Below are positions 560 to 60,714 of a stretch of DNA of 64,000 nucleotides, one piece after another. The position numbers and the translations under genes are program-made. Position 1 is the first letter of the stretch; each line of letters starts with the position of its first letter. The DNA comes from an uncultured Clostridia bacterium (GTDB lineage Bacteria > Bacillota > Clostridia > Christensenellales > UBA1242): positions 1 to 64,000 of the forward strand of contig CAMSQA010000006.1 of NCBI GenBank assembly GCA_947062475.1, written 5' to 3'. The notes under the pieces are model-generated. The model was not told the DNA's origin, searched no databases, and saw only the letters and a list, made by a program, of their open reading frames with translations.

Positions 560-764
560 ATGTAAGCATTTGACGAAATGTGATTTCTATGGTTGCAATA
601 ATGTGGCTAAATATAGTTTTTCAACAAAGGGACTTTTGAGACGCAATCTTTGCTTTTGTGAAGATTGTCTAAAGGGAATGTATCATGCCATAGGAAAGAT
701 GCAAACTCCAAAAGGTATAAACAGTCCATTTAAACTAAATAAAAGGTTGGGTGAAAAAAGATGA
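546..764 (+). CDS. Small cysteine-rich putative zinc-binding protein
   Basis: The product is 72 residues with two cysteine pairs: CKHLTKCDFYGC near the N terminus and CFCEDC in the middle. The spacing fits a small zinc ribbon or treble-clef finger. An AGGAGG site lies seven bases before the ATG. The stop overlaps the ATG of the portal gene (ATGA), which implies translational coupling in one operon. Zinc binding is inferred from the cysteines; the role, perhaps in head assembly or DNA handling, is unknown. Confidence 0.55.
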   Translation: MELNECKHLTKCDFYGCNNVAKYSFSTKGLLRRNLCFCEDCLKGMYHAIGKMQTPKGINSPFKLNKRLGEKR

Positions 765-2611
765 TAAATGAAGATGAACAAATTGTTAAGGAAGTAATTG
801 ATGATTTTAAAAAACGTGCTGAAATGAGAAGAAGTTTTGATCTTATTTGGCAAATCAATATGAATTTTTTGATGGGAAATCAATTTTGCAATGTTGGTTA
901 TGGCAATCGCCTAGAAGAAGTAGATAGACAGTTTTTCTGGCAAGAGCGAGAGGTTTTTAATCATATCGCACCAATTTTTGACATTCGTTATGCAAAACTT
1001 TCAAAAGTTAAGCCAGATATAAATATTATTCCAGCGACAAATGATGAACGAGATAAAATTACTGCGAAAGTTTCAAAAAAAATCTATAGTTCTATTAAAA
1101 ACAAACTTGATATAAATACCAAAATCAATCAAGCAATTAAGTGGTCTGAAGTTTGTGGAACAGCTTTCTATAAAATTGGTTGGAATCCAAATGGAGGTCA
1201 AATTATTGCAAAGGACGAAAATGGACAAGAAATTAGAAGTGGCGAAGTTGAGTTTTCGGCTGTAAGTCCATTTGAAATTTATCCTGATTCATCAGTTTGT
1301 GAAAGCATAGAAGAGTGTCAAAGTATCATTCACGCTAAAGCATTTTCAACAAGGCAAATTGAAAATATGTATGGTGTGAAAGTTAAAGGCGAAAAAATAA
1401 ATACCTATGCACTTGATAATGTAAGTTTTGGAGTTGGAGGTTTGGGCTTTAACGGAACAGTGCCAAAAATGATTGAAAATGTCAAAGAGGATAGTGCGGT
1501 TGTAATTGAGCGATATTCTCGTCCAAGCAGTGATTATCCAAATGGCAGATTGACAATTGTGGCGGGTAATAAGCTTGTTTTTGATGGAGAACTTCCATTT
1601 ATATTTGATGATGGTGAAAGGGATTTACCATTTGTAAGACAGACAAGTATAGCTGAACCTGGATGTTTTTGGGGGACAAGTGTGATTGAAAGATTGATTC
1701 CCGTGCAAAGGGCATACAATGCTGTCAAAAACCGCAAGCATGAATTTATAAATAGGTTATCACTTGGGGTGCTGAGCGTGGAAGATGGCTCTGTTGATCT
1801 TGACAACCTTGAAGATGAGGGGCTTTGTCCTGGCAAAGTGCTTGTTTATAGGCAGGGTGCAAGCGAGCCTAAGTATTTGCAAAGCGAGACTTTGCCAAGT
1901 GGCATTGAAAAGGAAGAATCAAATTTACTTGATGAATTTAAATCAATAAGTGGTGTCAGTGATCTTTTAAGTGCTGGTTCACTTACTTCTCAGATGAGTG
2001 GTGTTGCGATTGAACTGATGATTTCCCAAGATGAAACAAGACTTAATGCTTCTATTGACAGCATTAATACCTCTGTAAAACATATCGCTAAAAAGATTTT
2101 GCAGTTGTATAAACAATTTGCAACTCTTCCAAGACTTGCAAGAGTTATTGGAGAAAATGGACAGATTGAAATGTTTTATTTCTCTTCAAGCGATATTTCA
2201 AGTGATGACATTGAAATTGAAAGTCAAACAGAGGGATTTAATACATTGTCGCAAAGACGTGAAATGATTATGTCACTTCTTAAAAATGGCGTGCTTAGCG
2301 ATGAGAATAATCAACTTTCAAACAGAATGAAATGTAAAATTCTTGAAATGCTTGGCATGGGTATTTGGGAAAATGCACAAGATGTCAATGAACTTCATAT
2401 TAAAAAAGCCAGCAATGAAAACCTTAAGATGCTGAGCGGGGAAGAGATAAAAGCAAGTGAAATTGACAATCATGAACTTCATATAAACGAGCATATTGCA
2501 TTTATGCTTGGTGAAGATTTTGAAAAAGCATGCAAGAATGATGTGAATTTGGAAGAAAAATTCTTGCAGCATATAAATAATCATAAAAAATTTAATTTAG
2601 TGGAGGAATAA
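761..2611 (+). CDS. Phage portal protein
   Basis: This 616-residue protein is of the size and character of portal proteins of podovirus/P22-like phages: an N-terminal helical clip/wing region (RRSFDLIWQINMNFLMGNQF), a conserved HIAPIFDIRYAKLSKVKPDI segment, and a glutamine-rich, helical C-terminal barrel region. Portals form the dodecameric ring through which DNA enters and leaves the capsid. It starts at an ATG overlapping the previous stop and is followed three bases later by the scaffold gene, the usual portal-scaffold-capsid order. The reading frame is intact. Family assignment rests on length, composition and order, not on a search. Confidence 0.75.
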   Translation: MINEDEQIVKEVIDDFKKRAEMRRSFDLIWQINMNFLMGNQFCNVGYGNRLEEVDRQFFWQEREVFNHIAPIFDIRYAKLSKVKPDINIIPATNDERDKITAKVSKKIYSSIKNKLDINTKINQAIKWSEVCGTAFYKIGWNPNGGQIIAKDENGQEIRSGEVEFSAVSPFEIYPDSSVCESIEECQSIIHAKAFSTRQIENMYGVKVKGEKINTYALDNVSFGVGGLGFNGTVPKMIENVKEDSAVVIERYSRPSSDYPNGRLTIVAGNKLVFDGELPFIFDDGERDLPFVRQTSIAEPGCFWGTSVIERLIPVQRAYNAVKNRKHEFINRLSLGVLSVEDGSVDLDNLEDEGLCPGKVLVYRQGASEPKYLQSETLPSGIEKEESNLLDEFKSISGVSDLLSAGSLTSQMSGVAIELMISQDETRLNASIDSINTSVKHIAKKILQLYKQFATLPRLARVIGENGQIEMFYFSSSDISSDDIEIESQTEGFNTLSQRREMIMSLLKNGVLSDENNQLSNRMKCKILEMLGMGIWENAQDVNELHIKKASNENLKMLSGEEIKASEIDNHELHINEHIAFMLGEDFEKACKNDVNLEEKFLQHINNHKKFNLVEE

Positions 2612-2613
2612 TT

Positions 2614-3417
2614 ATGGAAGAAAATAGAGAACAACCGATTATAATGCCAGCAACCGCTTTAAACCGAGCAGATGAGAGAAGTGCTATGAGCGAAATCGGC
2701 TCTCTGCATGATTTAGGGAAATTTAAAACTGTGCAGGCTTTGAAAGACGCGTATGATAGTTTGCAGGTGGAGTTTACTAAAAAATGCCAAAAACTTAGTC
2801 AGTTACAAAAAGATAAAACTGAAGATTTGACAAATCAAAGAGGTGAAAAGGCAATTTCTGAAGTCAATAAAAATCAAGAAGATTTATCACAAAATGAAGA
2901 TAATTTAATTGAAAATGATGAAAATATTAATAAAAACGAAGAAAATATCGTCAAAAACCAAGAAATTGACTTGATTAATCAAAAAAGTTTGAAGGAAAAG
3001 AAGTCGGATAATATTGAAATTGAAGCCGAAAATTCAAACGATAACTCTTTGGATGAGGAAATGGCAAAGTTCCTTGAAAGTAATTTTGACGCAAGTAGTT
3101 ATGCTGATGAAATCAAACAAAGATTTCAAAGTGTAAACATTAAAAATTCTGACCCTTTTGCGGTTGCATGGGCAGAAGTCCTTATCTCTCATATAAAAGA
3201 GGGGGATAAACTTAGCGACCCAATAATCAATCAATATGTTTTATCTGATGAAAATGTAAGAAAAAAGATAGTCGAAGATTATCTTGTTCAGCTAAACAAA
3301 TCAAAACCACCAATTGTCATATCTTCGCAAAGCGGAGAAAGGTTGTCAGGTGTCATGCCTGACAGCCCTAAAACGCTTGATGATGCAAAGAGGCTTGTGG
3401 GCAAGATGTTTAGCTAA
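2614..3417 (+). CDS. Phage scaffolding protein
   Basis: This 267-residue protein is highly acidic and rich in Asn, Glu, Lys and Gln, with a coiled-coil stretch (residues about 40-140) full of repeated NENDEN/NKNEEN-like segments. Scaffolds sit between portal and capsid genes, act as internal assembly chaperones and are lost from the mature head. A GGAGGAATAATT site precedes the ATG. The C terminus (TLDDAKRLVGKMFS) is amphipathic, consistent with a coat-binding tail. No Ser-His-Asp protease signature is evident, so a fused head-maturation protease is unlikely. Confidence 0.65.
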   Translation: MEENREQPIIMPATALNRADERSAMSEIGSLHDLGKFKTVQALKDAYDSLQVEFTKKCQKLSQLQKDKTEDLTNQRGEKAISEVNKNQEDLSQNEDNLIENDENINKNEENIVKNQEIDLINQKSLKEKKSDNIEIEAENSNDNSLDEEMAKFLESNFDASSYADEIKQRFQSVNIKNSDPFAVAWAEVLISHIKEGDKLSDPIINQYVLSDENVRKKIVEDYLVQLNKSKPPIVISSQSGERLSGVMPDSPKTLDDAKRLVGKMFS

Positions 3418-3501
3418 AAAAAATTATATTTCTCTTTAAAACATATAAGCAATTGAAATTAATTTTACTTTTTTTAAAATTAAAATATTTTGGAGGGAAA
3501 A

Positions 3502-4716
3502 ATGGTAACATTACAAACTGCTGAAAGTGCTTTGAAGAATGTTTATCTTGGCGTGGTTGCAAATCAACTTAACGTCAATGCAAATCCACTTTTGGCGAAA
3601 ATAAAAAAATCAAGTAAAGATGTTTGGGGAAAAGAAGTCCGCAAACTTGCACCTTTTGGTATAAACGGAGGAATTGGTGCTGGCAGTGAAACTGATAGTC
3701 TTCCTAATTCTTCTGGCAATGGTTATGTTCAATTTATTGCAGAACTTAAAAACTTATACGGAAAAATTGAAATTTCTGATAAAGCAGTCAGAGCTTCAGC
3801 AAATAATGTTGGTGCTTTCGTCAATCTTTTATCTGATGAAATGGAAGGACTTGTAAAAGCTAGTGCATTTAATCTTGGAAGAATGTTGTATGGTGATGGC
3901 AGCGGCAAGCTTGCAGTAGTTGACAGCATTACTGGAACAACTGTAAAATGCAACAAAGTGAATAATCTTATTGAAGGTATGCTTGTAGATGTTTATTCTT
4001 CAGCAGGGAAAAAGAACACTGCTCCTATAAAAATTACTTATGTAGATAGAGTAAATAAAACTTTTACTTATCTTTCTTCTGCTGAACTTACTATCGCAAA
4101 AAATGATGTTCTTTACGTTCAAGGCTCAAAAGATTTTGAGATAAGCGGTCTTGGCAAATTGTTTGACACAAGTGCAACATCTATCTATGGAGTAAGTAAG
4201 AGTGAGCATCCATGGCTTAATCCTTATCAAGCGACTTCAGAAACTGAAATTTCAGATATATTAATTCAACAGGCAATTGATTTTCTTGATATGAATACTG
4301 ACAGTAAAATCAATTTTATTTCTTGCTCAAGCACAGTAAGAAGGGCTTATCAAGAATATTTAGGTGCTTATAGAAGAAATATTGATATTGCAGAACTTGA
4401 AGGTGGCTATAAGACTATTTCTCACAATGGCATTCCTGTTGTTGCTGATAGATTTGTTGATGATGACACAATGTATTTGTTAAATACAAATGACTTTACT
4501 CTTCATGAACTTTGTGACTGGCAATGGATTGAAGGTGAAGATGGCAGAATTTTAAAACAAAATCAGGGTTTCCCTACATATAGTGCAACCCTAGTAAAAT
4601 ATGCAGAGCTTATTTGTGATAAGCCATGCGGCCAAGCTAAAATTTCTGGCATAAAATCAAGTGTAACAAATCCTTTTACTTCAAACATTACTGTCAATAC
4701 AGCAAATGAAGCATAA
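3502..4716 (+). CDS. Phage major capsid protein
   Basis: The 404-residue product follows portal and scaffold and has the length and beta-rich, Gly/Ser/Ala-rich composition of an HK97-fold coat protein. The sequence reads as an N-terminal arm (LQTAESALKNVYLGVVANQL), then a mixed core, then a GYKTISHNGIPVVADRFVDD segment typical of the capsid A domain. I place the start at ATG 3502 because GGAGGG lies just upstream; an in-frame TTG at 3490 would overlap that site. An 84-base gap from the scaffold gene contains no gene. A strong terminator follows, so capsid is the last gene of the first transcription segment. Confidence 0.75.
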   Translation: MVTLQTAESALKNVYLGVVANQLNVNANPLLAKIKKSSKDVWGKEVRKLAPFGINGGIGAGSETDSLPNSSGNGYVQFIAELKNLYGKIEISDKAVRASANNVGAFVNLLSDEMEGLVKASAFNLGRMLYGDGSGKLAVVDSITGTTVKCNKVNNLIEGMLVDVYSSAGKKNTAPIKITYVDRVNKTFTYLSSAELTIAKNDVLYVQGSKDFEISGLGKLFDTSATSIYGVSKSEHPWLNPYQATSETEISDILIQQAIDFLDMNTDSKINFISCSSTVRRAYQEYLGAYRRNIDIAELEGGYKTISHNGIPVVADRFVDDDTMYLLNTNDFTLHELCDWQWIEGEDGRILKQNQGFPTYSATLVKYAELICDKPCGQAKISGIKSSVTNPFTSNITVNTANEA

Positions 4717-4734
4717 GATATAATTTGGTAAAAT

Positions 4735-4777
4735 AGGCAAAAAACAGAGAAAAAATCAAGGTTTTTTGCCTTTTTTC
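4735..4777 (+). terminator. Rho-independent terminator after the capsid gene
   Basis: An 11-base-pair stem (AGGCAAAAAAC pairing with GTTTTTTGCCT) is followed by a T run. It would reduce or end transcription after the capsid gene, leaving later module genes at lower dose. Confidence 0.8.
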
Positions 4778-4819
4778 TTTAAATTTTTTAATATTTTTAA
4801 ATTTATGAGGTGAATTATA

Positions 4820-5134
4820 ATGAATTTAATCAAGATTATAGGTGATGTATTTTTCATCTGTCAGAGGCTTAAAGAGGTTGATGAAAGCTATGAAGTATAT
4901 TTCAATTTGTCAACAAAAAGCTATGAAGTCCATTCAAACAAGCAGCAGAAAAACAGCTATTGTTTTAAAGTCCCTTATCCTATTTTAGATGAGAGAACAA
5001 TTGATTATGCAATCAAAACACGTGCAGAAAATCGAGATAAAATCATTGAGGAAATCGAACTTAACAACAAACTCATAGAGGAAAAAAATATTAAAAATCA
5101 AGTTAATTTATTAAAGGAGGCGTTATGCTTGTAA
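4820..5134 (+). CDS. Hypothetical protein in the phage head module
   Basis: This 104-residue protein begins after a GAGGTGA site. It has a beta-rich N-terminal half (FNLSTKSYEVHSNKQQ) and a charged helical C terminus. It overlaps the next gene by ten bases. It lies between capsid and connector, where small head-decoration or head-completion proteins are often encoded. No diagnostic motif is visible; function unknown. Confidence 0.55.
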   Translation: MNLIKIIGDVFFICQRLKEVDESYEVYFNLSTKSYEVHSNKQQKNSYCFKVPYPILDERTIDYAIKTRAENRDKIIEEIELNNKLIEEKNIKNQVNLLKEALCL

Positions 5135-5676
5135 AAGATATTATTCTTAAAGTTTGTGACTTCACTGAAAATGATGAGTTGGCACAGGCTTTAATAAATG
5201 AAACTGCTCTTGATGAAGATAAACAAAATTTATTAAACAAACTGATTAAATGCTTCAATCTTGTCAGAAATGAGATTGTAAGTGAATTTATTCCTATTGT
5301 CAAAATGGAACGTTTTGTTTGCGACAATGGAAGGATAAATTTCAACCAATTTAATGGCAAGGTGATTGATATTCTTTCTGTCAAGGATAAATTTGGCAAT
5401 AACGTCAGGTTTAAAATATGTGACGATTTTATAGAATTTGACGGAAAGGATGTATGTGTTTGGTATAATGCATCGGCTGATGAACTTGACAAAGATGACC
5501 GATTTTTTTCGACTATTTCTGAGCGTGTTTATGCTTATGGCATTGTGCGTGAATATTATTTTATTCAGACGTTGTATGAGGATGCTAAAGTGTGGGATGA
5601 ACGTTTTAAATCAAGTTTGCAAGCCTTTGAAAGAAAAAAAGGAGGGACGGAATTGCCTCGTAGGAGGTGGATCTGA
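5125..5676 (+). CDS. Putative head-tail connector protein
   Basis: The product is 183 residues, helical at both ends with a central beta segment (DVCVWYNASADELDKDDRF) and a C-terminal helix ending in RRRW. Size and place, between capsid and a large structural protein, resemble phage head-completion/adaptor proteins. The start follows AAAGGAGGCGTT. The stop overlaps the next gene's ATG, so both are translated together. The assignment is based mainly on gene order. Confidence 0.5.
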   Translation: MLVKDIILKVCDFTENDELAQALINETALDEDKQNLLNKLIKCFNLVRNEIVSEFIPIVKMERFVCDNGRINFNQFNGKVIDILSVKDKFGNNVRFKICDDFIEFDGKDVCVWYNASADELDKDDRFFSTISERVYAYGIVREYYFIQTLYEDAKVWDERFKSSLQAFERKKGGTELPRRRWI

Positions 5677-7190
5677 TGTTTTATAAAAAAACTCTTCAAA
5701 TCAAAAAGGGTATTGAAAAGGAATTTGAGTTTGACATGTTTGCCACAAATCAAAATTTGGAGACCGACCAGACTCAATTAAAAATTGGTGCTCCAAGAAA
5801 GGCTTTCAATTTCATTTCGGCTGATGGAACACTTAAAAATGGATATGGATTTAAAAAACTTGCAATGCCAGAAAGTGAAAGCAATATTGAAAATGAGACA
5901 GTCATTTCAATAAGAGGAAATGAAGTCAAAAACATATGGAAACATAAATGTTATGACAATGGCCTAGATAAAAATAAATATTATCTTTTTTATTTCAATG
6001 ATGAAGGAAATGCATGTTTTGACAACCTTTTTGCTTCAAGACCTTTGACAACTTTCAAACCTACAGGATATATTGATACGCCATTTGTATCTTACTATCG
6101 AAAGGGTTTGCAGGATGCAATGCTTCTTTCAGGAGATGTGAAAGATGATGACAACAATACTGTCAAAAAAGTTATGGTCATGACTGAAAATCATACTTAC
6201 ACAAATGAAAATGCCCCAAAAATAATGTCATGTTGTTGTCATTATGGAAAGTTGTTTGCAATTACAGCAAATGCGAGAGGCACTCTTATTTATAGCGAGG
6301 AAAATGATGTGCTTGAGTGGAGTAATGAAAAGACAAAAGATCTTGATTTCAGCGACCCACGTGGCGACCTTAATAAGATCATTTCTTTCAATGATTACCT
6401 TTATCTATTTCGAGATTTTGGTATAACCCGCATTTCTGAATATGGCAAAGATGACTTATTTGAAATATGTCATATATACCAAGCAGACAGCTATATCAAT
6501 CCAAACACAATTGCCGAGACTGGCGATAAAGTGTATTTTTTGGAAGGCGGAAGAATAAAAGTTTTTAATGGCTCGTCAATCAAAGATGTTGAGCTTGATG
6601 GTTTGAGCATTTTGCAGGAAAATGACAATCGTTTTGCTTATGGCGAATGTTTTGACGGGAAATATTATCTTGCTTGTCGTGGAAGCTTTGATGATGATAA
6701 TCTTGTTGGCTGTGAAGGTGAGCAAGGCGGATTTAAAAATAATTTGCTTATAGTTTATGATACGCTCAGCAAACATATTGACATCATGAGAGGTGTTGAC
6801 ATAAAAAAACTTCTCGCTCTGACAAATAAATTCAAGTCCAAGCTTGTTGCTTGCTTCAATGGCAAACATAAAGGCAAGATTGGTGAGCTTGTCAAAAATG
6901 GAAAGGTGTTTGATGAAAATTTGGATGCTGTTTGGGAAAGTGGAAAAACAGATTTCGGCTTTAATGGCAAACTTAAAAGGATAAAATCCTTTTTAATCAA
7001 AAGCGAAGGTGATTGCCTTGTCACCTTTAAAAGTGAACGCGGTGAAAAAACTTTCGCCGTCAAAGGCAAAGAAGTTGTGCAAAATATTCGAGCAAACATT
7101 TTGGGAAATCAATTTATTGTGAAGATAGAATCGCAACAATGTGACATGGTGTATATCAGCAATTTTGTGCTGAAAGTGAGTTGTGGCTGA
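5676..7190 (+). CDS. Large phage structural protein, likely beta-propeller tail-hub or plug protein
   Basis: This 504-residue protein is made mostly of short beta strands with repeated blade-like turns (GKLFAITANARGTLIYSEEND, GDKVYFLEGGRIKVFNGSS, FDGKYYLACRGSFDDD). This resembles the beta-propeller head-closure/tail-needle-hub proteins of short-tailed phages. ATG 5676 is preferred over an in-frame GTG at 5667 because AGGAGG lies seven bases upstream of it. It follows the connector and precedes the holin-like genes. Structure and role are inferred from the repeat pattern and order; no catalytic motif is seen. A receptor-binding role is an alternative. Confidence 0.5.
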   Translation: MFYKKTLQIKKGIEKEFEFDMFATNQNLETDQTQLKIGAPRKAFNFISADGTLKNGYGFKKLAMPESESNIENETVISIRGNEVKNIWKHKCYDNGLDKNKYYLFYFNDEGNACFDNLFASRPLTTFKPTGYIDTPFVSYYRKGLQDAMLLSGDVKDDDNNTVKKVMVMTENHTYTNENAPKIMSCCCHYGKLFAITANARGTLIYSEENDVLEWSNEKTKDLDFSDPRGDLNKIISFNDYLYLFRDFGITRISEYGKDDLFEICHIYQADSYINPNTIAETGDKVYFLEGGRIKVFNGSSIKDVELDGLSILQENDNRFAYGECFDGKYYLACRGSFDDDNLVGCEGEQGGFKNNLLIVYDTLSKHIDIMRGVDIKKLLALTNKFKSKLVACFNGKHKGKIGELVKNGKVFDENLDAVWESGKTDFGFNGKLKRIKSFLIKSEGDCLVTFKSERGEKTFAVKGKEVVQNIRANILGNQFIVKIESQQCDMVYISNFVLKVSCG

Positions 7191-7297
7191 TGTTCGACAA
7201 ATTGAGAAATCATATTGATCAGATTAATAGAAGAGAATTTCTAGTCGAGGAATATCTCTTAAAAAAAATGCTTCAAAAAAGCAGGAGGAAAAAATAA
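7190..7297 (+). CDS. 35-residue basic peptide, phage module
   Basis: This small frame starts at an ATG overlapping the stop of the preceding gene (TGATG) and ends in SRRKK two bases before the next gene. It is basic and predicted helical (MFDKLRNHIDQINRREF). The tight overlap at both ends suggests a real translated peptide that bridges the large structural gene and the holin genes. Function unknown. Confidence 0.5.
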   Translation: MFDKLRNHIDQINRREFLVEEYLLKKMLQKSRRKK

Positions 7298-7298
7298 T

Positions 7299-7526
7299 AT
7301 GGATTTCTGGTCTGAACTTGTAAAAACTGTGATTAGTAATGGAATTTTTGCTATGCTGTTTGTTTATCTGCTTTTCTATATTCTTAAGGATAGCCAAAAA
7401 AGAGAAGATGCCTATCGCAAAACCATTGACGAACTTGCCCAGCACCTTACCGTAATTGAAGATGTCAAAGAGGAAGTTGCAGAGATAAAAGATTTTCTTG
7501 AAAGGAGGTCTGATGATGAAATATAA
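7299..7526 (+). CDS. BhlA/UviB-like holin-type protein
   Basis: The 75-residue product has one N-terminal membrane helix (residues about 12-29, ISNGIFAMLFVYLLFYIL) and a charged coiled-coil tail (IDELAQHLTVIEDVKEEV). This is the usual layout of the BhlA/UviB family, small membrane proteins linked to phage lysis or bacteriocin release. An AGGAGG site lies upstream. No endolysin gene follows in this window, so lysis would need a partner elsewhere, or the protein has another role. Confidence 0.65.
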   Translation: MDFWSELVKTVISNGIFAMLFVYLLFYILKDSQKREDAYRKTIDELAQHLTVIEDVKEEVAEIKDFLERRSDDEI

Positions 7527-7845
7527 ATCATATGGCTTTTGGACAGCCCTTGCTGGTGCAGTCACTCTTTTTGTGGGCACAATCACAAAATGCTTTGGCA
7601 TTTCTTTCAATGCTGCAATAGTTGAAGATGTCATCATGGCTTTTGCTGGCATACTGGTGGTGCTTGGAATAGTGTGCATGCCAATCGATAAAGAAAAAAA
7701 TCCAGATTCTCAAGACGAGAAAGAGGATGTTTGCAAAATTGAAGAAAATGTCTGCGATGATAGCAATGAAAAACATGAAGAAGAAAGCAAAAAATACTCT
7801 TTTCAAGAGAAAAATTCAAAAAATGATGATAAAAACCAAAACTAA
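7516..7845 (+). CDS. Phage holin-like membrane protein
   Basis: This 109-residue protein has two hydrophobic segments (FWTALAGAVTLFVGTI and VIMAFAGILVVLGIVCM) joined by a short loop, followed by a long acidic tail. This is the topology of small phage holins. Two adjacent ATG codons (7513, 7516) follow GGAGG; 7516 gives the better seven-base spacing. It overlaps the previous gene and is the last gene before a strong terminator. Confidence 0.6.
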   Translation: MKYKSYGFWTALAGAVTLFVGTITKCFGISFNAAIVEDVIMAFAGILVVLGIVCMPIDKEKNPDSQDEKEDVCKIEENVCDDSNEKHEEESKKYSFQEKNSKNDDKNQN

Positions 7846-7916: not shown

Positions 7917-7933
7917 TGTCGAAATTTGTCGAA
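7917..7933 (+). promoter_or_regulatory. Tandem Spo0A-type boxes
   Basis: Two exact TGTCGAA heptamers start at 7917 and 7927, ten bases apart in the same direction. TGTCGAA is the known Spo0A (0A) box, and Spo0A dimers bind head-to-tail boxes one helical turn apart. The site lies about 100 bases before a possible promoter (TTGATT, 17 bases, TATCCT, within about 8036-8064) of the next gene. Regulation by Spo0A is an inference. Confidence 0.6.
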
Positions 7934-8091: not shown

Positions 8092-9177
8092 ATGAAGAAA
8101 AATAAGAAAGAAAGAGAAGTGAAAGAAGTCCTTAAAAACGAAGATAAACCATACAAATTTTGGACGACCACCAAAAAAATCTTTGCAGGCATTATTGTCG
8201 CTGTCATCGTTGCAGGTGCTGCAATCGGTCTTGCAGTTGGCCTTACAAGCAATAATAACAATGTTCCAACTCCACCTAGTGGCCCAAGCATTGAACAGCC
8301 TTCAAATCCAGGAAATCCTGGCGTGATTGTCCCTCCAGAGCAAGAAAAACCAGGTGATGGCGAAATCGTAAATCCAGATCCAGGACCTGAAAATCCAGAT
8401 CCTGATAATCCAAATCAAGGCGGTGATCAAAACCCTGAAGTGAAAATTGAAAATGTAGGTGACCTCCTCCAAAATCATGCTCAGACACTTAATAATGCAT
8501 TGAATAAAAATCTCTTTGAAAACGTAGGAAAAGATGTAATAAATAGATTTTTTAAGACAGAAAAAGCTTCAAATATTGATTGGTATGTGCAAGACGGCAA
8601 AGATGCAAACTCAATAAAAGGTTTTGATTTAAAATTCAATTATGATGCAGGAAGTGGTTCTGAAAGATATATCGTTTGCAGTGTGAAGTTGCAAGATGCA
8701 ATACAAATTGCTGACCTTCACAGTGCAAATGGTATAACAAATGAAACAATCACAAATGCAATAAAAGCACAAGCAGACAATTTGGAGTGTGCACAAAAAT
8801 ATTCTTTCACTTACACTGAAGCAGACAAAACCACAAATATCGAATTGAAAAATGCAATTTGCGACAAATTGTTTGGTAAAAACGAGACTGCAGAAAGATA
8901 TATTGTTGATGTAGGTCATAAGATTGATAGCGAAGGTTTAAGCGATGTTCGTGAATTTAAAGTTGTGGAAATCACTGAAAATGGAGTGCAAGAAAAAACT
9001 GTTTGGATAAAGGATAATGGCAAAGATTATCAAGAAAACTTTGAAAAAGGTGAATATAGAGAAGTTTACGAAGCTCAAAAAGTAGATTTTACTGGAAATA
9101 AAATTGAGCAAAGTGCAGAAAGTCTTGCGGATTATATGCTTGAAATGCCAGACGGAAGCTATTTTGAATTATGCTGA
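8092..9177 (+). CDS. Membrane-anchored exported protein with proline-rich linker
   Basis: The 361-residue protein has a charged cytoplasmic N terminus, a single membrane helix (residues about 29-51, IFAGIIVAVIVAGAAIGLAV), a long Pro/Asn/Gly/Asp-rich linker with repeated PDPGPENPDPDNP-type units (about 56-120), and a C-terminal globular domain outside the cell. A GGGGG site precedes the ATG. The family is not recognised. Two Spo0A-type boxes sit upstream and its neighbour at 9506 is another exported protein with such boxes, so a role in envelope change during stationary phase or sporulation is possible. Confidence 0.6.
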   Translation: MKKNKKEREVKEVLKNEDKPYKFWTTTKKIFAGIIVAVIVAGAAIGLAVGLTSNNNNVPTPPSGPSIEQPSNPGNPGVIVPPEQEKPGDGEIVNPDPGPENPDPDNPNQGGDQNPEVKIENVGDLLQNHAQTLNNALNKNLFENVGKDVINRFFKTEKASNIDWYVQDGKDANSIKGFDLKFNYDAGSGSERYIVCSVKLQDAIQIADLHSANGITNETITNAIKAQADNLECAQKYSFTYTEADKTTNIELKNAICDKLFGKNETAERYIVDVGHKIDSEGLSDVREFKVVEITENGVQEKTVWIKDNGKDYQENFEKGEYREVYEAQKVDFTGNKIEQSAESLADYMLEMPDGSYFELC

Positions 9178-9178
9178 T

Positions 9179-9209
9179 AAAAAAAGATTGCAAAAATGCA
9201 ATCTTTTTT
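9179..9209 (+). terminator. Rho-independent terminator
   Basis: AAAAAGATTGCA and TGCAATCTTTTTT form a long perfect stem with a four-base loop, ending in T residues, directly after the stop codon at 9177. Confidence 0.85.
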
Positions 9210-9211
9210 GA

Positions 9212-9418
9212 TGTCGTAAATGGCAGAAAAACATCGAAAATAAAAGAATAATATCGAAATATCAGATATTTTGTCATAATTTAAATAAAAATGTTGAAAC
9301 AATAAAATTATTGTAGAAAAATAGAGAAAAATATCGAAAGATTGATAAAAATGTCGAAATATGTAAGAATATGTTGAAAAATTAAATATAATGTCAAAAT
9401 GTGTCGAATAATGTCGAA
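9212..9418 (+). promoter_or_regulatory. Helically phased array of Spo0A-box-like heptamers
   Basis: TGTCGAA or close variants recur in one orientation at positions all ending in 2: exact at 9352, 9402 and 9412; one mismatch at 9252, 9292, 9312, 9332, 9372 and 9392; two mismatches at 9212, 9232 and 9272. Further degenerate units fill some gaps (for example 9322, 9362). All starts differ by multiples of ten bases over about 200 bp. The array ends 33 bases before the -35 box of the 9506 gene. It could be a cooperative Spo0A binding platform or a decaying 10-bp tandem repeat that contains the box. Confidence 0.6.
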
Positions 9419-9450
9419 ACTTAAGAACACAGGCAATTGTTGAAAAACAG

Positions 9451-9479
9451 TTGATTTTTATTTAAAAATAGGATAAAAT
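9451..9479 (+). promoter_or_regulatory. Promoter of the 694-residue lipoprotein gene
   Basis: TTGATT (9451-9456) and TAAAAT (9474-9479) are spaced by 17 bases, a good sigma-A match. Transcription would start about 9486, just before the AAGGAGGGAG ribosome site. The phased TGTCGAA array lies immediately upstream, where an activator would bind. Confidence 0.6.
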
Positions 9480-9505: not shown

Positions 9506-11590
9506 ATGAAAATAAAAGTTATGCGGATTGTTGCAATAATTTTGCTTTGTTGTGTTTCTCTTCTTTGTGTGGGTTGTGTGTTTGATAATACTGCTCAAGC
9601 ACCTGGCGATGATATGGGAAATTATGACCCTGACAATCCAGAAATACCTGATGAATATGACCCAGAAAATGCTGTGATAAGCATGTATGGCTCAAAGGTG
9701 CTTTATCGCCCAAACTCTTATGATTATGATGCTGGCTCTGGTGGCAATGGTGAAAAAAACAATTATTATGGCAATTATGCATTTTCAGTTTTAGAAGCAC
9801 TTTATAATTTTTATGGTATCACAAGTAACGCTGCTTATATAAATCAGGTCATGACAAAAAATGATGTAAATTATGATGTCACACAAATGATCAATAATTT
9901 GCCTTATTTTTATGATAGTATAAGATATCAAGTGAATGCAATTGGCACAGTCACACATGAAAAGGTTGGAGAGGGTGAAACTGAAGAGATTGAAAATTCA
10001 AAAGATCAATACTTTTTTGTTGCTGCCGATCACTCATCTCATTGGAAATGGTCTTTTGATTATGATGTCAATGAAGCGGTGACACCTTTTATTTCTGTTG
10101 AAGAAGAGGCAGTGATATATAGTGGAAATTATATTTATAATATTTTATATGGAAATGAAGAAAATTTTAAAATAGAATATCCTCAAGCTTATGATGTGGG
10201 GAAATTTAAAGACAATTATCAAAAAATTTATTTAGGCACAAGTGATAAAGCTGATGAAGAAAACTATTCTGATTTTGTCAAGACAATGGAATATGTGGTG
10301 TATAGTTATGCTTTAAATTTGGAGCCTCAAGCTGTGAATGTCACAATAAACAGAGGTGATAATCAGATTTTTGACCCTGCAACTGGTGAACATAATTTAT
10401 ATAGAATCACAATAGGTTCTTATGACAATGTGGATGCGGCACTTGAGGATATCACTGATTTGTTTCATAAAATAGGCTCTCATGTAGGGCTGATGAAAGA
10501 CCAAATCAGAAAGATTGCAAACTGGATCAAAGTCAACGTGATTGGGCTTGACACAAATATAAAAAATGATACTCTTTCAACCTATGACAGTGCGACAGCT
10601 GTCTATGATGCAGAAGGCAATTTGATTGACATTGAGTTTGCTGAAATTCCTTCAACAGAGACAAATGTCAACAGAAATTATGATGAAGCGGTTGATAAAA
10701 TTGTGAATTATGTTTGTCAATTTGCGACAATTGGCAGTGATTCTGATGGTGATGTGACCATTGATGACAGATTTTTGGCATCTGAGGTGAAGGAATATGC
10801 TGGGGATACATTCTTTATTGGAGGGGATGAAAACTTTCCAAAGCCACCTGAAAACATTGAGAATTTATCACCAAAAAGCATGTTGCCACTTGAGTATCAG
10901 TCTGTTGTGATTATGCTTGACAAGCCAGTTGCAATGAGTGACATGGCGGTTGCGCTTAAGTATGACGCTGATCTTAGTGGAACGACGCAAGGCGTATATG
11001 ACATGAGCAAGTATCTTGACATCATAGTGGAGCTTAACTATTACAGTCACAGGGCAAACAGGCTTATCACAATTGACAGTCAGAGGACGAGGGTCTATGA
11101 TGGGCCATATGAATTTGGTGTTGGGCCTGACACATATCCTGAGTATAATTTGCCTGACGATCATGGCACTGTTTGGTTTACGATTGATGGCAACAATCCT
11201 GATTATAAAGATCTTTTGATTGACACAGATGTGATTGAGGGTGTGCTTCCGATTGGGGCTTTCAACACTGACATTGGTGGAGGCATTCTTAAAACTGATG
11301 TTGGGCATAATGGATATAAAAAACCATTGGTTTCAAAAAATCCGCTTATACTTGTGGGCACAACTGATGTGAGAAAATATTATTCAATCATCGAGCCTGA
11401 CGATGGTGAGATTGGAGACCCTGAACTTACTTACACTACTGGAAGGCTTAATCCAGACAAGTTTAGTGGTTCTGATGGATGTGACTATCTTGAAATCACT
11501 TACAAGGTTTTGAAGAAGAAGGGTGACAGAAACACCAATTATTCATTCTACACAGGGCTTGTCAACTTTATGGATGCTGACATAAATTAA
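9506..11590 (+). CDS. Large secreted lipoprotein of unknown function
   Basis: The 694-residue protein begins with a lipoprotein signal peptide: a basic start, a hydrophobic stretch, and lipobox LLCVGC with the acceptor Cys at residue 24. The mature part starts with a Asp/Pro/Asn-rich linker (PDNPEIPDEYDPEN) and continues as a large, Tyr- and Asp-rich extracellular region with no enzyme motif I recognise. The ribosome site AAGGAGGGAG is strong and a terminator follows. Upstream lies the phased Spo0A-box array. Its composition resembles the neighbour at 8092, and both are probably envelope proteins. Confidence 0.65.
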   Translation: MKIKVMRIVAIILLCCVSLLCVGCVFDNTAQAPGDDMGNYDPDNPEIPDEYDPENAVISMYGSKVLYRPNSYDYDAGSGGNGEKNNYYGNYAFSVLEALYNFYGITSNAAYINQVMTKNDVNYDVTQMINNLPYFYDSIRYQVNAIGTVTHEKVGEGETEEIENSKDQYFFVAADHSSHWKWSFDYDVNEAVTPFISVEEEAVIYSGNYIYNILYGNEENFKIEYPQAYDVGKFKDNYQKIYLGTSDKADEENYSDFVKTMEYVVYSYALNLEPQAVNVTINRGDNQIFDPATGEHNLYRITIGSYDNVDAALEDITDLFHKIGSHVGLMKDQIRKIANWIKVNVIGLDTNIKNDTLSTYDSATAVYDAEGNLIDIEFAEIPSTETNVNRNYDEAVDKIVNYVCQFATIGSDSDGDVTIDDRFLASEVKEYAGDTFFIGGDENFPKPPENIENLSPKSMLPLEYQSVVIMLDKPVAMSDMAVALKYDADLSGTTQGVYDMSKYLDIIVELNYYSHRANRLITIDSQRTRVYDGPYEFGVGPDTYPEYNLPDDHGTVWFTIDGNNPDYKDLLIDTDVIEGVLPIGAFNTDIGGGILKTDVGHNGYKKPLVSKNPLILVGTTDVRKYYSIIEPDDGEIGDPELTYTTGRLNPDKFSGSDGCDYLEITYKVLKKKGDRNTNYSFYTGLVNFMDADIN

Positions 11591-59688: not shown

Positions 59689-60714
59689 GTTTGAGAGTTA
59701 TGTTATTCTAGACATCACTAAAATAATCTCCTTTTATTTACAAGTATAGTATAAGTTTGAGAGTTATGTTATTCTAGACATCACTAAAATATTATTCTTG
59801 TTTCAAAAGGCTATGCTGATGTTTGAGAGTTATGTTATTCTAGACATCACTAAAATGTCAGTGAAGGTCATTGATGATGTTCCGCTGTTTGAGAGTTATG
59901 TTATTCTAGACATCACTAAAATCAGCTTTGACGAATAAATGTATAACACATTGTTTGAGAGTTATGTTATTCTAGACATCACTAAAATATGTTCGTTTGA
60001 TAATATTCTTATTATTCTGTTTGAGAGTTATGTTATTCTAGACATCACTAAAACGCAAACAGTGGCTATAGGCGACTATGCAAAGTTTGAGAGTTATGTT
60101 ATTCTAGACATCACTAAAACTTCTCTGCGTCAATTAATAGTTGTTGAGCCGTTTGAGAGTTATGTTATTCTAGACATCACTAAAACAATTGCTCTTTATT
60201 TAAAACAAATGGCTTGGTTTGAGAGTTATGTTATTCTAGACATCACTAAAACTTGATAAATTGTGTGGTTTATTAAACGAAAGTTTGAGAGTTATGTTAT
60301 TCTAGACATCACTAAAACTTGTTCCGAAAGATTTAACTAAATTCATAAGTTTGAGAGTTATGTTATTCTAGACATCACTAAAACAAAACATTCATTTCAT
60401 TCGTGTTATTCTTGGTTTGAGAGTTATGTTATTCTAGACATCACTAAAACTACAATTCCATAAGTTGAACATCTGCATCAGTTTGAGAGTTATGTTATTC
60501 TAGACATCACTAAAACTGATATTGGCGCAATCAATAGCCATCCTATGTTTGAGAGTTATGTTATTCTAGACATCACTAAAACTGTTTGCATAAAGATATT
60601 AGCATTACAAGTGTTTGAGAGTTATGTTATTTTAAATATTATTAAAATAAATGTCAATATCATCGCGTCCGTGTTGTTGTTTGAAAGTTATGTTTTTCTG
60701 AACTTCACTTGATC
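59689..60714 (+). CRISPR. Type II-A CRISPR array, 16 repeats
   Basis: Repeats of 36 bases (start GTTTGAGAGTTATGTT, end ACATCACTAAAAC or T) recur every 66 bases with 30-base spacers, beginning at 59689, 59755, 59821 and so on to 60547. The first 14 are identical except for the last base: T in repeats 1-5, C in repeats 6-14. Repeats 15 (60613) and 16 (60679) are in register but degenerate. The array is transcribed away from csn2. All spacers are different from each other by eye; none obviously matches this window. Confidence 0.97.

Follow-up and report, generated by a model that had tools for sequence, protein, structure and literature searches.

A phased array of Spo0A-box-like sequences upstream of a lipoprotein gene in an uncultured Clostridia bacterium

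The 0A boxes of Bacillus subtilis and Clostridioides difficile, such as those of abrB and spo0A, have the 7-bp core TGTCGAA, are arranged as tandems one helical turn apart, and are found before sporulation genes and before spo0A itself (PMC3485338, PMC12090719). Spo0A contacts G2, C4 and G5 of this core and its isolated DNA-binding domain binds targets, with each change of a contact base costing approximately ten-fold in affinity in C. difficile (PMC3485338), and the protein binds as dimers according to the literature cited in PMC12090719. The locus described here lies in a 64,000-nucleotide stretch of the genome of an uncultured gut Clostridia bacterium (hereafter, the window), and this bacterium and its genus share with the described systems the core, the helical-turn tandems, the presence of Spo0A, and boxes before sporulation genes and spo0A. 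It is different, however, in that four boxes have been footprinted at spo0A of B. subtilis, whereas here 12 boxes, mostly one mismatch off TGTCGAA, occupy a single phase over 208 bp before a lipoprotein gene, in an array that is not conserved. A search of open-access papers found no array of ten or more Spo0A boxes. If the boxes here are bound, they form the longest phased cluster of Spo0A sites known to us, and the locus would be a natural system for testing how the steepness of the Spo0A response depends on the number of sites and their spacing.

The array is made up of eleven TGTCGAAA-like boxes at steps of 20 bp, or two helical turns, the first at 9212 and the last at 9412, and of an additional half-way box at 9402 (Table 1). 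Written in rows of 20 from 9212, the units begin, in order, with TGTCGTAA, CATCGAAA, TATCGAAA, TGTCATAA, TGTTGAAA, TGTAGAAA, TATCGAAA, TGTCGAAA, TGTTGAAA, TGTCAAAA and TGTCGAAA. TGTCGAA is exact at 9352, 9402 and 9412, has one mismatch at 9212, 9252, 9292, 9312, 9332, 9372 and 9392, and has two at 9232 (CATCGAA) and 9272 (TGTCATA). All boxes that had been listed in a first-pass annotation of this DNA were confirmed in position. That annotation had described a phased run in 10-bp register; the single phase modulo 10 holds, but the period is 20 bp, and a uniform register of one box per 10 bp was ruled out, the unit being 20 bp with weak half-way sites. Apart from the one at 9402, these half-way sites match the box at 2.9 of 7 positions vs. 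2.0 expected (p = 0.007).

Ten matches to TGTCGAA with at most one mismatch (three exact, seven with one mismatch) fall in the same phase modulo 10, whereas 5,000 dinucleotide shuffles gave a mean of 1.2 such matches and an in-phase maximum of three. Identity within the array at a lag of 20 is 0.59, compared with 0.36 in the shuffles (SD 0.03, maximum 0.48), and the enrichment at a lag of 10 that had been proposed as a check was also seen, with an identity of 0.50 that none of the 5,000 shuffles reached. Background statistics were drawn from 454 kb of genome stretches, the window included, in which the best other in-phase cluster has three boxes, and pattern searches were run over the whole genome, where this array is the sole match to three boxes 20 bp apart. 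Between them, these two scans rule out that such arrays are abundant across this genome.

The array is oriented towards the sigma-A-type promoter of the lipoprotein gene and, as had been noted previously, lies just upstream of it. It ends approximately 70 bp upstream of the inferred start, whereas typical Spo0A sites overlap the -35 element. The type of promoter, TTGATTTTT...(T)AGGnTAnAAT, recurs before most orthologs whether or not boxes are present. On its other side, the array is directly preceded by a terminator-like element, which follows gene 8092-9177 and was missed by a terminator scan, having few G-C pairs; a similar element is found in the same place in the closest relative. The lipoprotein itself gave nothing convincing in Pfam, PHROGs or PDB profile searches. 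The gene for the membrane-anchored protein adjoins the lipoprotein gene in relatives too, and the only two exact tandem pairs of the genome are both at this two-gene module, at 7917 before the membrane protein and at 9402 before the lipoprotein; the pair at 7917 is absent from the first-pass annotation. Directly upstream of the module, window positions 761-7845 hold a phage structural remnant that includes a P22-like portal (761), a podovirus-type capsid (3490), a BhlA holin (7299) and a second holin (7531). G008 has holins in the equivalent position, and in G014 and G021 similar sequence lies close to the module.

Table 1. Coordinates of the array, its neighboring genes and signals, and related features. 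Positions without a locus prefix are those of the window.
Feature	Location	Strand	Remarks
Exact tandem pair TGTCGAAATTTGTCGAA	7917..7933	+	5' of gene 8092-9177
361-aa membrane-anchored protein	8092..9177	+	First gene of the two-gene module
Terminator-like inverted repeat and T-run AAAAGATTGCAAAAATGCAATCTTTTTT	9182..9210	+	Read from the sequence
Spo0A-box-like array	9212..9419	+	Eleven 20-bp units, consensus TGTCGAAA then a 12-bp A-rich spacer
Box starts of the units	9212, 9232, 9252, 9272, 9292, 9312, 9332, 9352, 9372, 9392, 9412		
Promoter-proximal exact tandem pair TGTCGAATAATGTCGAA	9402..9418	+	10 bp apart
Near-box TGTTGAA	9438..9444	+	Out of array phase, just 5' of the -35; putative function
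Sigma-A-type promoter TTGATT-17-TAAAAT	9451..9479	+	Promoter of the lipoprotein gene
694-aa lipoprotein	9506..11590	+	Putative target gene; invariant lipobox Cys24, orthologs throughout the genus
spo0A of this genome	L001:1075-1824		
Spo0A_C-only paralogs	L002:189-590, L003:1417-1869		
G234 array	L299:1251-1800	Reverse complement of locus	Single-phase units resembling CGTCGAACAA

Spo0A, which had been expected in this genome (1.05 Mb, 97.7% complete), is present and its DNA-binding domain is conserved. Besides the full-length protein, two others have the Spo0A_C domain only (133 and 150 aa); Spo0A_C was matched at E 2e-38. NCBIfam TIGR02875 calls the full-length protein Spo0A with 211.5 bits, above the cut-off, and the alignment of its DNA-binding domain with B. 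subtilis Spo0A in PDB 1LQ1 is free of gaps. Throughout 61 genomes of the same genus, the tandem TGTCGAA-N3-TGTCGAA, with at most one mismatch, was counted 166 times compared with 27 for the reversed-pattern control, a six-fold excess (both figures are sums over the per-genome table). Among the tandems inspected, some precede pdaB, the ftsA/ftsZ region or alr, which has a neighboring ribbon-helix-helix-like gene, and sigK is preceded by one in seven genomes. At spo0A, a tandem was seen in seven genomes, each time in the same inverted orientation and some 510-570 bp 5' of the part that encodes the Spo0A_C domain. TGTCGAA tandems are a genuine signal at sporulation genes across the genus. Most boxes of the array itself differ from the Spo0A box at one contact base, and the earlier interpretation of the array is supported only in part.

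The explanation that we favor, with moderate confidence, is that the array is an enlarged cluster of putative sites for Spo0A, or for a Spo0A_C-only paralog, which would alter transcription of the lipoprotein gene. Spo0A-type proteins would line up head-to-tail on one face of the DNA, and one strong box with one weak half-way site in every 20 bp would fit head-to-tail dimers. Affinity would be highest close to the promoter, at the perfect boxes 9352, 9402 and 9412, and weaker outward, and transcription from the 9451-9479 promoter would change as the regulator accumulates. Since orthologs keep the promoter without boxes, the array more likely modulates promoter activity than creates it. We infer protein binding at the array, as well as which Spo0A-type protein would bind, the sign of the effect and any cooperativity.

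A possible, if rather unlikely, alternative is that the array is a decaying minisatellite, in which a box-bearing 20-bp unit was multiplied in this lineage by replication slippage or unequal exchange, and in which only the proximal pair is functional, with the distal units being passive leftovers. The array does resemble degenerate intergenic minisatellites in having tandem units of one length, in being specific to a lineage, and in the divergence of its copies. Unlike those, however, it shows constraint on a known protein-binding core, with spacers that diverge without change of length, and in a relative this core recurs between different spacers. Consensus matches were found at 77 of 88 positions in box columns compared with 74 of 120 in spacer columns (Fisher p = 2e-5), which is not the even spread of divergence over the unit that a neutral minisatellite would be expected to have, and the difference persists when A-consensus columns alone are compared (31 of 33 vs. 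60 of 90, p = 0.001). Spacer identity between units is near background, at 0.46 vs. 0.42 for shuffled spacers, neighboring units are no more similar than distant ones, and the ten spacers contain no indels, each being exactly 12 bp. A young, perfect minisatellite is ruled out by the spacer divergence and the lack of similarity between adjacent units. The divergence of spacers of unchanged length between boxes that were kept argues against a plain minisatellite as well, and suggests that the spacers drifted whereas the boxes and the distance between them were maintained.

The contact bases point in the other direction. The most informative positions of the unit are T1, G2, T3, C4 and G5, with 1.3-2.1 bits each. 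G2, C4 and G5 are the box bases most often lost; all three are kept in four of the 12 boxes, and the remaining eight each lack one. These losses, which affect most distal boxes, are mostly AT-directed transitions (G-to-A or C-to-T), with the non-contact T and A bases kept, a pattern that looks like mutational wear and that would favor the minisatellite. Given the approximately ten-fold affinity cost of each lost contact base, the distal array may be a run of weak putative sites at best, and one that is wearing away.

The same promoter was also compared in relatives. Orthologs of the lipoprotein across the genus have 39-63% identity in an alignment of twelve, with the lipobox Cys invariant, and most of their upstream regions hold just the terminator of the previous gene and a TTGATTTTT...TAnAAT promoter. 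Any tandem at all was found in four of 35 ortholog upstream regions, one of the four being inside hairpin-like sequence, and boxes precede the orthologous gene in the closest relative and in one other species. The array was therefore rejected as a conserved element of the ortholog group, whereas boxes as such were accepted as shared with the closest relative, which has a cluster of its own there. In this relative (G128), in which SpoIVA is 97% identical and the lipoprotein 63%, the orthologous gene is preceded by TGTCGAAAGATGTCGAAAACTGCTGAA and TGTCGAATAATAGCAGAA, a differently arranged cluster with three boxes 10 bp apart directly after the terminator and with TGTCGAATAATAGCAGAA near the promoter (L268:1221) as the apparent counterpart of 9402-9418. 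The presence of boxes at the same promoter in G128 suggests that boxes there probably predate the split of these two species, whereas the long 20-bp array is, on this comparison, a lineage-specific expansion, organized differently in its closest relative as the minisatellite explanation would have it. A different kind of array occupies this promoter in another relative (L274; G137 = G007), where GTAAAA-n-TTTTAC palindromes extend over approximately 250 bp 5' of the lipoprotein ortholog together with one Spo0A-box pair.

Arrays of a comparable kind also exist elsewhere, and bear on both explanations. In G073, a half-size TauE gene is preceded by eight TGTCGAAA boxes at 20-bp steps, save for one step of 29 bp, and this independent array has the same box with unrelated spacers, which speaks against the minisatellite. 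In G124, TGTTGAA units extend over approximately 200 bp in front of an amidase gene, and G047 has a TGTTGAA array before pdaB, where the genome studied here has TGTCGAATTTTGTTGAA. Leaving aside G000, G073 and G124, the genus shows no enrichment of 20-bp triples (14 vs. 11 in the control). In G124 and G047, 10/20-bp arrays with the TGTTGAA core are found between convergent genes as well, a setting in which a role in promoter control is not obvious and which favors the minisatellite. Beyond the genus, in other families and genera of the order, runs of about five boxes occur in G330, G369 and G389, and in G234, from another family, an array of approximately 550 bp made of 10-bp units abuts a terminase-like gene. 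Phased arrays with this core therefore recur and, judged from where they lie, not all of them can be promoter elements. The loci of the arrays in relatives are unrelated, which would speak against an origin- or centromere-like array. It is mainly this occurrence of arrays outside promoters that limits our confidence in the binding-site reading. TGTTGAA tandems or arrays were seen at several loci of G047 (L192-L195) and G124 (L177 and L197), and genes for collagen-like (BclA-like) repeat proteins lie beside such arrays at L177:1694-2863 (G124) and L195:2108-2950 (G047).

A further alternative, that phased A-tracts form an intrinsically curved region which aids RNA polymerase or a nucleoid protein and in which the boxes are incidental, is improbable. 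The array does contain repeated A4-A5 runs upstream of a promoter, and its period-10 signal is strong for both A and G+C (power 19.6 and 15.5), but the period is exactly 10.0 rather than approximately 10.5, where the power is about 1, curvature has no need of the T1, G2, T3, C4 and G5 that are the most informative bases, and the promoter is kept in orthologs without any such region. Least probable is that it is mainly the Spo0A_C-only paralogs that read the boxes, as repressors or anti-activators that compete with Spo0A, since the DNA contacts of the paralogs are only partly conserved, even though Spo0A_C matches occur in all 61 genus genomes (1-6 each, many of them short DNA-binding-domain-only proteins), triple boxes adjoin paralog genes in G061, and TGTTGAA arrays are present in G047, in whose assembly full-length spo0A was not found but from which it may simply be missing.

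For the favored cluster of Spo0A-type sites, the nature of the signal depends on the Spo0A receiver. To our knowledge, phosphorylation input is regarded as universal for Spo0A. Aligned with B. subtilis Spo0A, 30 of 31 Spo0A sequences of the genus (L056-L085 included) have Glu in place of the Asp that is phosphorylated there; the first acidic residue is kept, and most of the sequences lack the second. The Asp-to-Glu change was also seen against Spo0A N-domain PDB chains, and the alignment is gap-free at this site. In aspartate-less receivers (ALRs), of which ChxR and RitR are examples, Glu is the commonest replacement, and the first acidic residue is usually retained but the second usually missing; the Spo0A of this genus follows this pattern, although Asp-to-Glu alone is often insufficient to activate Spo0A (PMC4395418). 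A search of open-access papers yielded no Spo0A in which Glu replaces the acceptor Asp. We also know of no Spo0A ortholog that has been described as an ALR. A search with the HisKA family alone gave no match in 13 of 16 genus members, this genome included, compared with 2-27 matches in eight of nine other genomes of the order that were searched.

The genus Spo0A thus appears to have lost its phosphorylation switch. The first-pass annotation had suggested that the array could be a very cooperative, threshold-type switch for an envelope gene; with a receiver that has no phospho-acceptor Asp and a genome that has no HisKA kinase, a threshold based on phosphorylation is unlikely, and a threshold switch would instead sense the amount of Spo0A. 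A broader proposal, which we consider unlikely as a whole, is that the genus controls sporulation without any phosphorylation, with a built-in Glu and no HisKA, with regulator amount read by extended phased arrays, and with short Spo0A_C-only proteins as competitors, in which case the array in the window would be an extreme concentration-reading promoter. The changes in the Spo0A receiver and the apparent loss of HisKA kinases may outweigh the array in importance, as this is an uncultured Clostridia lineage with genomes of approximately 1 Mb that has kept Spo0A and sporulation genes whilst apparently losing the phosphorylation input, and the start of sporulation without a phosphorelay becomes a directly testable question in it. 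Elsewhere in the window, positions 59689-60699 hold a CRISPR-like array with a 36-bp repeat, GTTTGAGAGTTATGTTATTCTAGACATCACTAAAAC, and a period of 66 bp.
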